DNA of 14,311 nt from Methanomicrobiales archaeon (GTDB taxonomy: Archaea; Halobacteriota; Methanomicrobia; Methanomicrobiales; JACTUA01), in assembly GCA_028678965.1 (NCBI GenBank), contig JAJRCM010000004.1:1-14311 (forward strand), given 5' to 3'. Shown here piece by piece: positions 2,844 to 9,248 of the stretch. The notes beneath the pieces are model-generated. The model was not told where the DNA came from and did no database searches. It worked only from the letters and a program-made list of their open reading frames with translations. The translations under genes were made by a program, and so were the position numbers. Every line of letters begins with the position of its first letter. Position 1 is the stretch's first letter.

Positions 2844-2899
2844 CCTCTACCATCCTGCAAAGTTCTATCTCCTGCCTGTTCCTGATCACATACGATGTT

Positions 2900-3862
2900 A
2901 TGCTGCTTACTGAGACTGTGGAGAAAATAAAGAGCATGGAAATCCGTGGTGCGGGGAGAATTGCCCGGGCGGCAGTGGAAGCGTTACAGGAGTTTGCCTG
3001 CACCCTGCGTGTAAAAGATATTGATGAATTTAAAGGTGAGATGATGAAGGCAGCTTCAATTCTCGAAACAACGAGACCCACCGCCGTGTCCCTTCCCAAT
3101 GCCATCCACTACGTCATGTCTGGCCTCTCTGGCGATCATGAGGTGGAGAAGGCCAGAGCTGCACTGATCCTCCGTGCTGAGACCTTCATTCATGATTCCA
3201 CCCACGCGGTGGAGAGAATAGGGGAGATCGGTGCCCGGCACATCCAGAACGGGGATGTCATCCTCACCCACTGTAACTCTGAAGCAGCGCTGGGGTGCAT
3301 TATCACCGCTCACCGCGCAGGGAAGGATATCAGCGTCATTGCTACCGAAGTTCGACCAAGGAACCAAGGACTTCTCACCATCAGAACCCTGAATGACGCG
3401 GGAATTTCTACCCAGTATATTGTAGACTCCGCAGCCAGGCACTTCATCAACGAGGTGGATATGGTGATTGTCGGTGCAGATGCAGTAACCGTGAACGGGG
3501 CAGTGGTCAACAAGATTGGGACCGCTCCCATCGCCCTCGCTGCCCATGAAGCCCGAACCAGCTTCATTGTGGCGGCAGAGACGTATAAATTCGCTCCGCG
3601 CACCCTCTTTGGGGAGCTGATTCAGATCGAGGAGCGGAATACGAATGAGGTGCTGCCAGTTCCCCTCCAGGAATCTCTGCCCCATGTCAGGGTGAGGAAC
3701 CCGGTTTTCGATGTTACCCCTGCATCCTACATTGATCTCATTGTCACCGAAAGAGGAGTGTTCCCTCCGTCACTTGCCTACCTCATTATACGTGAACATC
3801 TTGGGTGGAGCATCGAGGAATTCCATAAAACATTTGAGATGGACTACCGAGATCAGGTGTGA
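2900..3862 (+). CDS. Ribose-1,5-bisphosphate isomerase (R15P isomerase, eIF2B-alpha-like family)
   Basis: 320 residues from the ATG at 2900. The frame is open further upstream, but this start gives MLLTETVEKIKSMEIRGAG, which matches family N-termini and the usual ~320-residue length. Known role: converts ribose 1,5-bisphosphate to ribulose 1,5-bisphosphate in the archaeal AMP/nucleoside (pentose bisphosphate) pathway, feeding form III RuBisCO. RGAG at 16-19 is the phosphate-binding motif. Cys125 (THCNS) and Asp194 (VGADAV) are the predicted catalytic pair, with the same 69-residue separation as the Thermococcus enzyme's Cys133 and Asp202. Alternatives in the superfamily (eIF2B subunits, methylthioribose-1-phosphate isomerase) fit less well. 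No clear SD precedes the start, so it may be leaderless or read from a short leader in the 56-base divergent spacer. A RuBisCO C-terminal fragment follows six bases after the stop. Confidence 0.9.
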   Translation: MLLTETVEKIKSMEIRGAGRIARAAVEALQEFACTLRVKDIDEFKGEMMKAASILETTRPTAVSLPNAIHYVMSGLSGDHEVEKARAALILRAETFIHDSTHAVERIGEIGARHIQNGDVILTHCNSEAALGCIITAHRAGKDISVIATEVRPRNQGLLTIRTLNDAGISTQYIVDSAARHFINEVDMVIVGADAVTVNGAVVNKIGTAPIALAAHEARTSFIVAAETYKFAPRTLFGELIQIEERNTNEVLPVPLQESLPHVRVRNPVFDVTPASYIDLIVTERGVFPPSLAYLIIREHLGWSIEEFHKTFEMDYRDQV

Positions 3863-3868
3863 CAACCT

Positions 3869-4027
3869 ATGGCTGACGTACTGGCAACCTATTTTTTTAA
3901 TCCGCGTGCGGGGGCAACCGCTATGTGCCAGGCAGTCGAGGCTACCATGAAGGGTGTGTCACTTATCGCATATGCGAAGAGTCATCATGAGCTGAAAAAA
4001 GCTCTGGAAAAATGGGGTACTGTGTAA
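3869..4027 (+). pseudogene. C-terminal remnant of a form III RuBisCO large subunit (open 52-codon mini-ORF)
   Basis: A 52-codon ORF (MADVLATYFF...KWGTV) starts six bases after the R15P isomerase stop and ends 13 bases before dapF. Residues 14-50 (AGATAMCQAVEATMKGV..., then YAKSHHELKKALEKWG) closely match the C-terminal helices of archaeal form III RuBisCO. The Thermococcus-type protein, as I remember it, ends YAKTHKELARALEKWG, preceded by AGA.A.RQA...MQG. By my hand alignment about 21 of 36 positions agree, and the stop lies at the expected C-terminus. The preceding ~400 residues, including all catalytic ones (carbamylated Lys, loop 6 Lys, phosphate-binding glycines), are absent. Residues 1-10 show no RuBisCO similarity; a T7 tract at 3892-3898 marks the approximate junction. 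Adjacency to R15P isomerase supports a deleted rbcL. A retained, translated mini-protein is possible: AGGTG lies nine bases before the ATG. Confidence 0.75.
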
Positions 4028-4040
4028 CAGAGGAACAACC

Positions 4041-4859
4041 ATGGAAATACCTTTTGTAAAACTTCAGGGAAACGGGAATGATTTTATCCTGATTGATGAG
4101 ATGGAACAGGAGACCATCCCCGATGCGATGAAGGGGGAATTTGCCGCCCAGTACTGTGACCGGAGATTTGGTATTGGGGGGGACGGTGTGCTATTCCTCC
4201 AGAAATCGACAACTGCCGATGCACGAATGCGCCTTTTCCAACCAGACAGGAGCGAGGCAGATATGTGTGGTAACGGCATCCGTTGCCTGGTCAAGTACGC
4301 GGTGGATGGGGAATATCTGCGAGACGCCTGCAAAATAGAGACACCTGCGGGCATCATCCCCGTTCGCATGGGATACCGCGAGGACCGGTTCATGGCTGGC
4401 GTGGCGATGCCCGCGCCCCGCTTTCTACGGGAGGAGATCCCTGCTATCGGGGAGGGTGAGTTCCTGGAACACATCGATGGATTCGACGTGCGGGCGGTGA
4501 ACATCGGGGTTCCCCATGCGGTAATCGTGGTAGATAATGTGGATGCTATCGACCTTCCCACCATCGCTCCCCGCATACGCCACCACCCAACGTTCCCCAA
4601 AGGAGCAAATGTGAATTTCGTGCAGAAGACCGGAGAGCGGGCACTCTCGCTCCGTACGTTTGAACGGGGGGTGGAAGGGGAGACCTTTTCCTGCGGCACC
4701 GGGGCATCGGCCGCTGCAGTTATCCTTCACCGTATGGGCGTAGTGGGAGAGCCAGTCGAGGTGGAGACCCCCGGTGGGCCCCTGACTATCAACCTGAAAG
4801 ACGGGGTGGTGATGGAGGGACCGGCAGAGACGGTTTTTTGGGGCGAAATCGTATTTTAA
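4041..4859 (+). CDS. dapF: Diaminopimelate epimerase
   Basis: 272 residues, the normal length. It interconverts LL- and meso-diaminopimelate in lysine synthesis using a cofactor-independent two-cysteine mechanism. The family signatures are clear: KLQGNGNDF at residues 8-15, CGNGIRC with catalytic Cys76, and FSCGTGASAA with catalytic Cys218. The two halves carry the duplicated epimerase fold. The substrate-binding stretch before Cys76 reads FQPDRSEADMCGNG where many bacterial enzymes have N-x-D-G-S, so the usual Asn is Gln67 and the Gly is Arg70. The ATG at 4041 has GAGGAA seven to eight bases upstream. It is the last gene of a plus-strand run (R15P isomerase, RuBisCO remnant, dapF) and faces radB tail to tail with 38 bases between the stops. 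The role is secure from the catalytic motifs. Confidence 0.95.
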   Translation: MEIPFVKLQGNGNDFILIDEMEQETIPDAMKGEFAAQYCDRRFGIGGDGVLFLQKSTTADARMRLFQPDRSEADMCGNGIRCLVKYAVDGEYLRDACKIETPAGIIPVRMGYREDRFMAGVAMPAPRFLREEIPAIGEGEFLEHIDGFDVRAVNIGVPHAVIVVDNVDAIDLPTIAPRIRHHPTFPKGANVNFVQKTGERALSLRTFERGVEGETFSCGTGASAAAVILHRMGVVGEPVEVETPGGPLTINLKDGVVMEGPAETVFWGEIVF

Positions 4860-5593: not shown

Positions 5594-6787
5594 TCACCTC
5601 TCCTTTCCCTTTGGAGAGAGGGTACACCATGCAACCTCACTGATTACCCTCGTGACCTGACGAAGAGGGAGGTCGAGTGCGAGAGCCCATGCCCGGCACT
5701 GTTCATATTCGGGTTTGAGGGAGGTGAGCTCTCCATTCCGCCAGCTGCATTTTATATCGATTATCCTTTCCTCGCCCTTGATCGTGACCGCGACCTTCTC
5801 CACTGAACGGTGGAATATAAACCGATGGATGGAGGGGGACCACCGGATTCCCAATGAACCCAGTTCACAGGCCATCAGATCCGCAAGGTCTTCGGTGCAA
5901 GAGGAGGGACAGATCACCCTGACGAGAAATCCTGGCCGCCCCTTTTTCATCAGCAGTGGGATAACTGACACATCCAGCGCCCCGGCCTCCATTAACCGCT
6001 CGATACTATAGGCAATTACTTCCCCCGATATGTCGTCCACGTTTGTCTCCAGGATATCGACTTGGTCGTGAGAACCGGGGAGAGGATCGGTCTCCATCAA
6101 TATCGCCCTCAGCACATTCGGAGCATCGGGATCATCTCTACTCCCGGCACCGTACCCGGTTCCAACTACCCTCCCCGCTCCTTTCACCTGGGGAGCAAGC
6201 GTACTGAATTCAGCGAGGATCGCTGCACCAGTGGGGGTACAGAGCTCCCCTTCTCCTCCCCCCATTACCATGGTAAGCGGTGCATCACGAAAGATTTCTC
6301 CGACTGCAGGAACAGGAACGGGCAATCTGCCATGCAAGGTCTGAACCGATCCGCTTCCCACGGCAACCGGCAGAACGTCGATCCCATCAACGTGGAGGGA
6401 TGCGAGCGCCACACAGGCACCGACCACCTCGGCAACCGCATCATCTGCCCCAGCTTCATGGAAATGTCCAGTTACCCCATGTATCCTACGCTCTGCAGTG
6501 GCCATTCTCTGAAAGATTCTGACTGCCATATCCTTGGTGTCCTGCGGTGCTTCTGCACCATTGACCCTGGCAACCACCTCTTCCAGCGTGCGAGGTTTAA
6601 CCGGGGCTCGGCTATCCACGAGCAGTGCCCCTATGCCCTTTCGTGTGACCTTTCGTAGGCCAGGATCACCAACTACTGAGGTCATGGCATCAAGTACCTG
6701 CATGCGGTCCGCCCCCAGATCAAGGAGCGAACCCACGATCATATCACCGGCCGCGCCATGGAATGGATCGAGGAGAAGGATGCGCAT
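5594..6787 (-). CDS. larC: Nickel-pincer cofactor biosynthesis protein LarC
   Basis: 397 residues from the ATG at 6787. The frame is open to 6853, but MRILLLDPFHGAAGDM is the characteristic N-terminus and GGTGG precedes this ATG. Known role: CTP-dependent insertion of nickel into pyridinium-3,5-bisthiocarboxylic acid mononucleotide, giving the NPN cofactor of lactate racemase and related enzymes. Visible family blocks are DPFHGAAGDM (7-16), GHFHEAGADDAVAEVVGA (107-124), VAVGSGSVQTLHGRLPVPVP (141-160), ELCTPTGAAI (181-190) and ETNVDDISGEVI (247-258). In several bacteria the gene is split by a programmed frameshift; here it is a single uninterrupted frame. No LarB, LarE or LarA is in this window, so the NPN-dependent enzyme it serves is not evident. 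It forms an operon with radB downstream. Confidence 0.93.
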   Translation of the reverse strand: MRILLLDPFHGAAGDMIVGSLLDLGADRMQVLDAMTSVVGDPGLRKVTRKGIGALLVDSRAPVKPRTLEEVVARVNGAEAPQDTKDMAVRIFQRMATAERRIHGVTGHFHEAGADDAVAEVVGACVALASLHVDGIDVLPVAVGSGSVQTLHGRLPVPVPAVGEIFRDAPLTMVMGGGEGELCTPTGAAILAEFSTLAPQVKGAGRVVGTGYGAGSRDDPDAPNVLRAILMETDPLPGSHDQVDILETNVDDISGEVIAYSIERLMEAGALDVSVIPLLMKKGRPGFLVRVICPSSCTEDLADLMACELGSLGIRWSPSIHRFIFHRSVEKVAVTIKGEERIIDIKCSWRNGELTSLKPEYEQCRAWALALDLPLRQVTRVISEVAWCTLSPKGKER

Positions 6788-6801
6788 ATGCCACCAGTAC
6801 C

Positions 6802-6808
6802 TATAAAT
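6802..6808 (+). promoter_or_regulatory. TATA box of the VCP-family ATPase gene
   Basis: The 46-base spacer between the divergent larC and VCP starts contains CTATAAATC. Its centre lies about 28 bases before the ATG at 6834, the archaeal TATA-to-initiation distance, so the transcript would begin at or a few bases before that ATG (leaderless or nearly so). This supports 6834 over the upstream in-frame ATG at 6819. On the other strand, CATATACGC near 6813-6822 sits about 30 bases before the larC start and may serve that gene. Confidence 0.55.
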
Positions 6809-6833
6809 CCCTGCGTATATGACCTTTAAGGTA

Positions 6834-9248
6834 ATGCCCGAAGTATTTCTCAAGGTGGACAGTGCCTATCCCGACGATCAGGGGCGCGGGAAAGCACGGC
6901 TTGATCCAGACACCATGCTGCAGCTTCGGCTCTCTCCCGGAACCCTGGTGATGATTGAGGGGAAAAGAACCACCGTCGCCAAGGTATGGCGTTCACAGAT
7001 CAATGACTGGCACCAGACGAAGGTTCGTATTGATAATTATACCAGGCAGAACGCCGGGGTGAGTATTGGTGACCGGGTGAAGGTCTTTCCGGTGGAGAAA
7101 GAGATTGAGGCGAAACGGGTCGTGCTCGCACCCCCTGAAGATCTCCCTCGGAACCTTCCCATCAACCTGAATAATGCGATCAATCGCCTGATCGATTTCC
7201 CCATCACCATCAATGATGTCGTACCCATTCATGCCGGCATGCCGCCGTTCATGCAGCTCATCTCTTTTAAAGCTGTGGTGGTGGAGCCTGAGGATGCGGT
7301 GATCATCACCAAGAACACGGAAATTGAGTTCAGTGAGAAGCCTGCGGCTGGATTTGCCGGGGTCAAGCACATCAGCTATGAGGATATCGGTGGACTGAAG
7401 GATGAACTCCAGCGGGTGCGGGAGACGATCGAGCTCCCTATCCGTCACCCCGAGCTGTTTAATAAACTGGGGATAGAACCACCCAAAGGGGTTCTCCTGT
7501 TCGGACCTCCTGGAACGGGGAAGACCCTGATCGCAAAAGCGGTGGCAAATGAGAGCGGAGCACATTTTATCCACATTGCCGGACCTGAGGTAATCTCCAA
7601 GTATTACGGTGAAAGCGAACAGAGGCTGCGGGAGATCTTCGAAGATGCCAAACAGAATGCACCCTCTATCATCTTTATTGATGAACTGGACTCTATCGCT
7701 CCCCGCAGAGAGGAGGTCACCGGTGAAGTCGAGCGACGGGTGGTTGCCCAGCTTTTGACCATGATGGACGGGCTTGAAGAGCGGGGTCAGGTAGTGGTGA
7801 TAGGTGCCACAAACCGGGTGGATGCCATTGACCCGGCACTCCGCAGGCCTGGTCGGTTCGACCGGGAGATTGACATCGGCGTTCCCAGCGAGATCGACCG
7901 CAACGAGATCCTCCGCATCCACACCAGGGGAATGCCCATCGCCGAAGATGTTGACCTGCAGATGCTAGCCCAGCAAACACACGGGTACGTTGGTGCCGAT
8001 CTCGCTGCTCTAGCCCGAGAGGGTGCAATCCGTGCCCTGCGCAGGTACCTCCCCAAGATCGATCTGGAGGAGGAACAGATCCCGCCAGAAGTACTTGAAG
8101 TGATGCAGGTGAAGGCTGCGGACTTCAGTGAAGCGCTGAGGGATGTGGGGCCGAGCGCGATGCGTGAGGTATTACTGGAAGTGCCGCACACCTCGTGGGA
8201 TGACGTCGGCGGTCTGGAGAGCGCAAAACAGGAAGTGCAGGAAGCAGTGGAGTACCCACTGAAAAAGAGGGAGCGATTCGATGATCTGGGGGTCGAACCT
8301 CCAAAAGGTGTTTTACTCTACGGTCCACCAGGAACAGGCAAGACGCTGATCGCGAAAGCAGTCGCGACAGAGAGCGGGGCAAACTTCATACCGGTACGGG
8401 GTCCCCAGCTCCTCTCCAAGTGGGTTGGGGAGAGCGAACGAGCGGTCAGGGAAGTGTTTAAAAAAGCACGACAGGTCGCTCCCTCCATTATCTTCTTCGA
8501 TGAACTTGATGCCCTCGCCCCTGATCGGAACAGGACGACGGGAAGCCATGTGACGGACAGTGTCCTGAACCAGCTGCTCAGTGAGATAGACGGTCTCTTT
8601 GAATTGAGAGGAGTTGCTATCATGGGTGCTACCAACAGACCGGACATCGTTGACCCGGCATTGCTCCGTGCGGGAAGATTCGATCGGCTGGTATATATTG
8701 GAGAACCGGATGAGAAAGACCGGAAAAGAATCCTCGAAATTCATTGCCGTTTTATTCCCATCGAAGGCTCCGTGATTGAGGAAGTGGTGAGTCTCACCGA
8801 CAGGTTTGATGAAGGGGGAATGGAGCAGCTCATCGATGCCCTCGGCACCAATCAGACTATTGACCTTGACATGGTGAAGACAGAACGGCAGAAAATTGAG
8901 AAGGGCACCGGTAAAGAAATGACCCGGGGTCAACGAAGGAGGAAATTCGTCGAGCTCCTCCACATGAAACGGTTATTCCTCAATGACCTTGCCCGCGATC
9001 GCCTGATCGAGTCGCTTGTGCTGGGTTCTGCGGGATACGTTGGATCCGATCTAGCATCCGTGTGCCGCGAAGCGGCAATGTTCGCTATGCGGGAGAACGC
9101 ACCGGCAGTGATGGAGCGTCACTTCCAGCAGGCATTGAAAAAGGTCCGGCCCACCATGAACGACCGGCTTCGCGAGATATACCTCCGTTATCAGGAATCA
9201 TTCAAGCCCGGTCTCTCCAAACAGGAGCAACCTCGCGAATATCAATAA
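6834..9248 (+). CDS. Cdc48/VCP-family AAA ATPase with an enlarged second AAA module
   Basis: 804 residues from the ATG at 6834, chosen because the TATA box at 6802-6808 fits this start; an upstream ATG at 6819 would add five. Domain order: N-domain (double-psi barrel, GRGKARLDP near 17-25), D1 with Walker A GPPGTGKT (224-231), Walker B IIFIDELD (279-286) and GRFDRE, then D2 with Walker A GPPGTGKT (497-504), Walker B IIFFDELD (552-559) and GRFDR. Known role: a hexameric unfoldase that extracts and unfolds proteins, often for the proteasome. In D1 the path from IHTR to GYVGADL spans about 22 residues. In D2 the equivalent IHCR to GYVGSDL spans about 98, an in-frame insertion of ~76 charged, probably helical residues (about 644-730). 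The C-terminus (KQEQPREYQ) does not end in a typical HbYX motif. Confidence 0.94.

Follow-up and report, generated by a model that had tools for sequence, protein, structure and literature searches.

An in-frame 52-codon remnant of a form III RuBisCO gene between R15P isomerase and dapF in a Methanomicrobiales genome, and its probable replacement by a second RuBisCO type

A short open reading frame (ORF) at positions 3869–4027 (+ strand; 52 codons, ATG to TAA) keeps both natural ends of a form III RuBisCO large-subunit gene (rbcL). By its sequence it is the product of one in-frame internal deletion of that gene and not a mere C-terminal scrap. We consider it probable that a second, distantly related RuBisCO had replaced the enzyme encoded here and that the redundant rbcL, linked to the gene for ribose 1,5-bisphosphate isomerase (R15P isomerase), was then deleted. 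The window, that is the whole stretch of DNA analysed, is one entire contig of 14311 b from a metagenome-assembled draft genome (G000; 1.2 Mb, 180 contigs, 77.75% complete), and the named genomes with loci resembling it are Methanomicrobiales.

Results

The 52 residues were predicted originally to be the C-terminal ~40 residues of an archaeal RuBisCO with its natural stop, and profile searches bear this out. The ORF matches positions 262–299 of 299 in PF00016 (RuBisCO_large; 34.3 bits, E 2.1e-8, cut-off 30.1) and positions 389–426 of 426 in TIGR03326 (type III RuBisCO; 35.2 bits, E 6.4e-9), the latter score lying far under the full-length cut-off of 497 because the ORF is a fragment. Homology to the form III family is thus present. 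The retained 3' end (3908–4027, +), made up of the final ~39 codons with their stop, aligns to residues 361–399 of the 401-residue sister sequence L012 with 62% identity. The further claim that all but the C-terminus had been lost holds for the catalytic core but not for the N-terminus, of which 13 codons survive. Residues 1–13, MADVLATYFFNPR, are a RuBisCO N-terminus, and the retained 5' end (3869–3910, +) runs from the start codon through codon 13, codon 14 being ambiguous, as its Ala is compatible with either side of the deletion junction. Taken alone the N-terminal match to intact relatives is weak, at 53–65% identity over 17–25 residues (53% over 17 residues to the family loci L009 and L010, E 0.03 and 0.02; 59–65% to L100, L104 and L127); however, 38 intact sequences have four invariant positions within columns 3–13, and the ORF keeps each of them. 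The N-terminal match, the C-terminal match and the position of the start behind the isomerase gene together indicate that both natural ends were kept and the middle was lost: set against L012, whose residue 361 follows at about codon 14, the ORF lacks ~347 of 401 codons without a shift of frame. A full-length large subunit has ~400 residues or more, and the region containing what we take to be the catalytic lysines and metal-binding motif of RuBisCO is absent here and present in the intact sisters. With the active site and almost all the rest of the enzyme lost, the ORF product cannot be a RuBisCO.

Upstream lies the R15P isomerase gene (2897–3862, +; TIGR00511, 448.8 bits, cut-off 314.1) and downstream, on the far side of where the ancestral rbcL stood, the diaminopimelate epimerase gene dapF (4041–4859, +; TIGR00652, 256.2 bits, cut-off 114.65). 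The end of the isomerase gene contains AGGTG (3855–3859, +), a putative ribosome-binding sequence. This end, GATCAGGTGTGA, recurs unchanged in four of the five family members with an intact rbcL and differs by one base in the fifth (G004); the isomerase stop is 6 nt from the ATG of the ORF, the spacing in those five being 4–7 nt. A promoter and terminator scan of 3700–4200 found none, the bacterial consensus that it uses being of little use for archaea. Elsewhere in the window, 5594–6853 (−) encodes LarC, a nickel pincer cofactor protein, in a methanogen; both NCBIfam parts score above their cut-offs.

A protein search with the ORF returned two proteins, the ORF itself (P0001) and P0002. The latter also has 52 residues, is identical to the ORF at 44 of them and carries the same start–end fusion on a separate contig of 1193 b. 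A draft metagenome assembly in 180 contigs invites the explanation that the assembler left out the interior of a complete rbcL; yet the same fusion at the same length in a protein differing at 8/52 residues on another contig, and the presence of the ORF itself on two contigs, the longest of 79.2 kb, make it so improbable as to be negligible. The assembly deletion raised in the original prediction is thereby countered: an error of this kind is hardly likely, because the fusion recurs in a diverged relative. A wider profile search gave 497 short RuBisCO matches; among the 120 listed, the start–end join is found in P0001 and P0002 and in no further taxon, and the other short proteins begin inside the gene. 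With regard to the neighbourhood of P0002, none of the 120 R15P isomerase proteins listed of 6763 lies on a 1193-b contig, and the nearest non-self isomerase among them is 75% identical. A single-sequence scan of the genome contigs found no relative.

The original prediction also proposed that rbcL once stood beside the isomerase gene and was lost by internal deletion. Genomes of the same family agree with this: in 5/11 (G003, G004, G006–G008) an intact rbcL separates R15P isomerase from dapF. G000 has the remnant, the G001 and G005 drafts have no R15P isomerase locus, and in G002 (same genus), G009 and G010 nothing was recognisable between the two genes (tblastn, E up to 0.01). The Methanospirillum locus L079 carries the isomerase-linked type (67% identical), again with R15P isomerase upstream and dapF downstream, and its gene is homologous to the ORF at both ends of the latter. 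We take this locus to mean that the linked type probably belongs to form III-a, the form to which the M. hungatei enzyme, which works with PRK, is assigned (Kono et al., 2017; PMC5241800); the ORF differs in missing ~347 of 401 codons and the active site.

We extended the comparison to 83 R15P isomerase loci, comprising 80 from named genomes (those listed among 169 matches of an alignment-based contig scan), the window, G009 and G010. A linked rbcL is present from its start in 26, absent in 54 and decayed in three; absence is partly unproven in 8/54, as less than 1.5 kb lies downstream (7 b in one). On the isomerase tree, intact versus not intact requires at least nine changes, four of them forced by well-supported branches. 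The three decayed copies account for three changes, at least two forced by well-supported branches, and on these tree positions they would have arisen independently. Two of them, L064 (genome G178) and L072 (G134), represent the same gene at the same locus as the ORF and are also shortened, but whereas the ORF keeps both ends, L064 keeps 11 codons before an out-of-frame jump to residue ~88, and L072 has lost its start and keeps residues 353–396. Methanoregulaceae hold two different rbcL decay products at the R15P isomerase–dapF locus. Gaps without rbcL mostly measure 40 to 224 nt. Start-codon scars noted by eye at clean-loss loci (L007, L053, L057, L059) were dropped after a shuffle test; in local alignment against shuffles at 33 loci, L064, with its plain N-terminus, gave p 0.005, and the candidates L112 and L106 were dropped because p 0.015–0.020 fails across 33 tests. 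The rbcL of G102 was rejected as a decayed copy, its reported internal stop sitting at the C-terminal end. We note that the linked rbcL at G020:C25:3021–4007 has an in-frame TAG and runs off the contig end, which may be further decay or a sequencing error.

Although its frame is open, the ORF has departed from the intact enzymes. The reference set was the 38 distinct sequences among 63 loci matching end to end at >60% identity, the most divergent relatives lying outside it. Invariant columns are broken at 2/19 in the ORF, 3/19 in P0002 and 6/15 (C-terminal columns) in L072; when intact sequences were left out in turn, 35/38 broke none and 3/38 broke one. Mean identity of the C-terminal part to intact copies is 0.59 for the window, 0.53 for P0002 and 0.57 for L072, the least typical intact sequence having 0.71. 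By these residue comparisons the remnants are under relaxed constraint. Two of the breaks are common to the ORF and P0002; therefore drift began before their split.

The frame has nevertheless been kept, as predicted: in both of the diverged lineages it is open and equally long, and the ORF may be translated. Alternatively, selection may be maintaining it, either because a small protein is made from it or because, as a spacer, it couples translation from R15P isomerase to dapF. The frame conserved in length, the identity of residues 35–51 in the ORF and P0002, the retained start signal and tight spacing, and an AlphaFold model with predicted helices at 12–28, 32–38 and 40–49 (pLDDT 71.8, pTM 0.50, residues 1–9 below 50) would fit such a role, although the model itself gives a function of the 52-mer neither support nor exclusion. 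We think selection improbable, given that invariant RuBisCO residues are broken, that three family genomes, among them G002 from the same genus, have nothing recognisable at this position, and that with ~8 amino-acid changes, by our estimate, an open frame could persist by chance. Nor does the locus generally require a spacer ORF, since those three genomes do without one and most gaps lacking rbcL span 40 to 224 nt. It is similarly doubtful, though conceivable from the sequence, that the deletion created a new RuBisCO-derived 52-residue peptide, expressed from the old rbcL start and kept for a role in translational coupling or regulation, for example of the replacing RuBisCO.

The loss of rbcL could mean that the pathway has decayed here or that another rbcL exists elsewhere, and a search for a RuBisCO gene and AMP phosphorylase in the rest of the genome found both. 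AMP phosphorylase is encoded on contig C74 (732.9 bits, above cut-off), a PRK-family protein, tested as Pfam family PF00485 only, on C68, and a second RuBisCO on C176, where the gene runs off the contig end after ~260 residues. The C176 protein is 78% identical over residues 1–249 to a G002 RuBisCO (on C199), and the two represent a second Methanomicrobiales type of ~430 residues, form III by family match and ~40% identical to the lost linked type; in G000 it is not beside R15P isomerase. The G002 gene matches structure 2cwx, presumably from Pyrococcus, with 500.9 bits, as against 338.1 bits for the linked type. Of the two alternatives, then, the other rbcL is favoured, as a different type and not as a spare copy. 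Decay of the pathway, with R15P isomerase retained for another purpose, finds a parallel in the non-carboxylating pentose bisphosphate route of haloarchaea (PMC9700705). With R15P isomerase, a second RuBisCO, AMP phosphorylase and a PRK-family protein all in G000, the pathway has not simply decayed, and we regard this explanation as very improbable.

The two types alternate across the order. In a hand count over 232 genomes, which ignores relatedness, the linked type occurs in 101, some copies being cut by contig ends and the decayed G178 and stop-containing G020 being included, and the other type in 118. Ninety-five genomes have the linked type only, 112 the other only, six both, one (G164) a third type only and 18 none. 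The double carriers (G124, G136, G139, G140, G156 and G179) are thus six among 213 genomes with either type; G139 and G156 are near-complete, in one and two contigs. R15P isomerase occurs (E up to 1e-80) in 92/95 linked-only and 107/112 other-only genomes. A C-terminus profile run over G178 and the 131 genomes lacking the linked type recovered the remnants of G000 and G134 and the shortened G178 copy; no further clear remnant was found in that set, weak matches at E 0.01–0.1 aside. G134, with remnant L072, also carries the second type.

Several other RuBisCO genes came to light in this survey. The third type, ~43% identical to both others, occurs in four genomes, all from a single genus (g34); in G164 it stands alone, whereas G186, G187 and G188 carry the second type as well. 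At G057:C6:25697–26973 the C-terminal part of a second-type rbcL matches in a separate end stretch, as from a frameshift, and G187:C513:8440–8586 holds a second-type C-terminus in a 56-residue open frame, possibly the other half of a gene cut at the C161 edge.

Discussion

The ORF descends from a linked form III rbcL, of the type seen in Methanospirillum, that belonged to an R15P isomerase–rbcL–dapF cluster. Arrival of the second RuBisCO type would have made this gene dispensable, redundancy being the cause that we infer, while R15P isomerase, AMP phosphorylase and PRK would have continued to make RuBP for the second enzyme; RuBP may come from nucleotides too, according to Kono et al. (2017; PMC5241800). 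A single deletion of ~1 kb, which on this account came later, took out codons ~14 to ~360 without shifting the frame and spared the start with 13 codons and, at the far end, the final ~39 codons with their stop. It predates the split from the relative with the same fusion, and the ORF has since changed at positions conserved among intact copies.

Some of the data sit less easily with replacement. The second rbcL of G000 is visible only in part, though the gene is probably whole; the frame is still open in two lineages; an intact linked copy may lie elsewhere in G000, as the draft is 77.75% complete; and G178 has a decayed linked copy (L064) while the second type was not found in its 82%-complete draft. 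The G178 genome would suit the opposite order of events, in which something else, such as a pathway of little value, led to decay of the linked rbcL, and the second type came later or was already there but played no causal part. We consider that order unlikely, since the second type is present in two of the three genomes with remnants and the state with both types exists, in six genomes, with the linked gene adjoining R15P isomerase in all six. Replacement followed by deletion remains the reading that we prefer.

Internal deletion of a redundant gene is a familiar origin of pseudogenes, in which the ends are kept, the core is gone and constraint is relaxed. The ORF is alike in all three respects and differs in that the intact ancestor, the intermediates, clean loss and the alternative enzyme are all visible in related genomes, and in that its frame is still open. 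The open-access papers retrieved, surveyed by title and start of abstract with subscription papers outside, describe neither RuBisCO remnants at this locus nor such alternation.

For annotators, remnants of this kind should not be counted as RuBisCO genes. For the biology of the Methanomicrobiales, the locus would represent a RuBisCO swap caught in the act, the losing gene being seen intact, shortened in three ways and gone. Two distant form III RuBisCOs hardly co-occur in this order, R15P isomerase persists with either, and the whole offers a natural experiment on whether both RuBisCO types do the same job.
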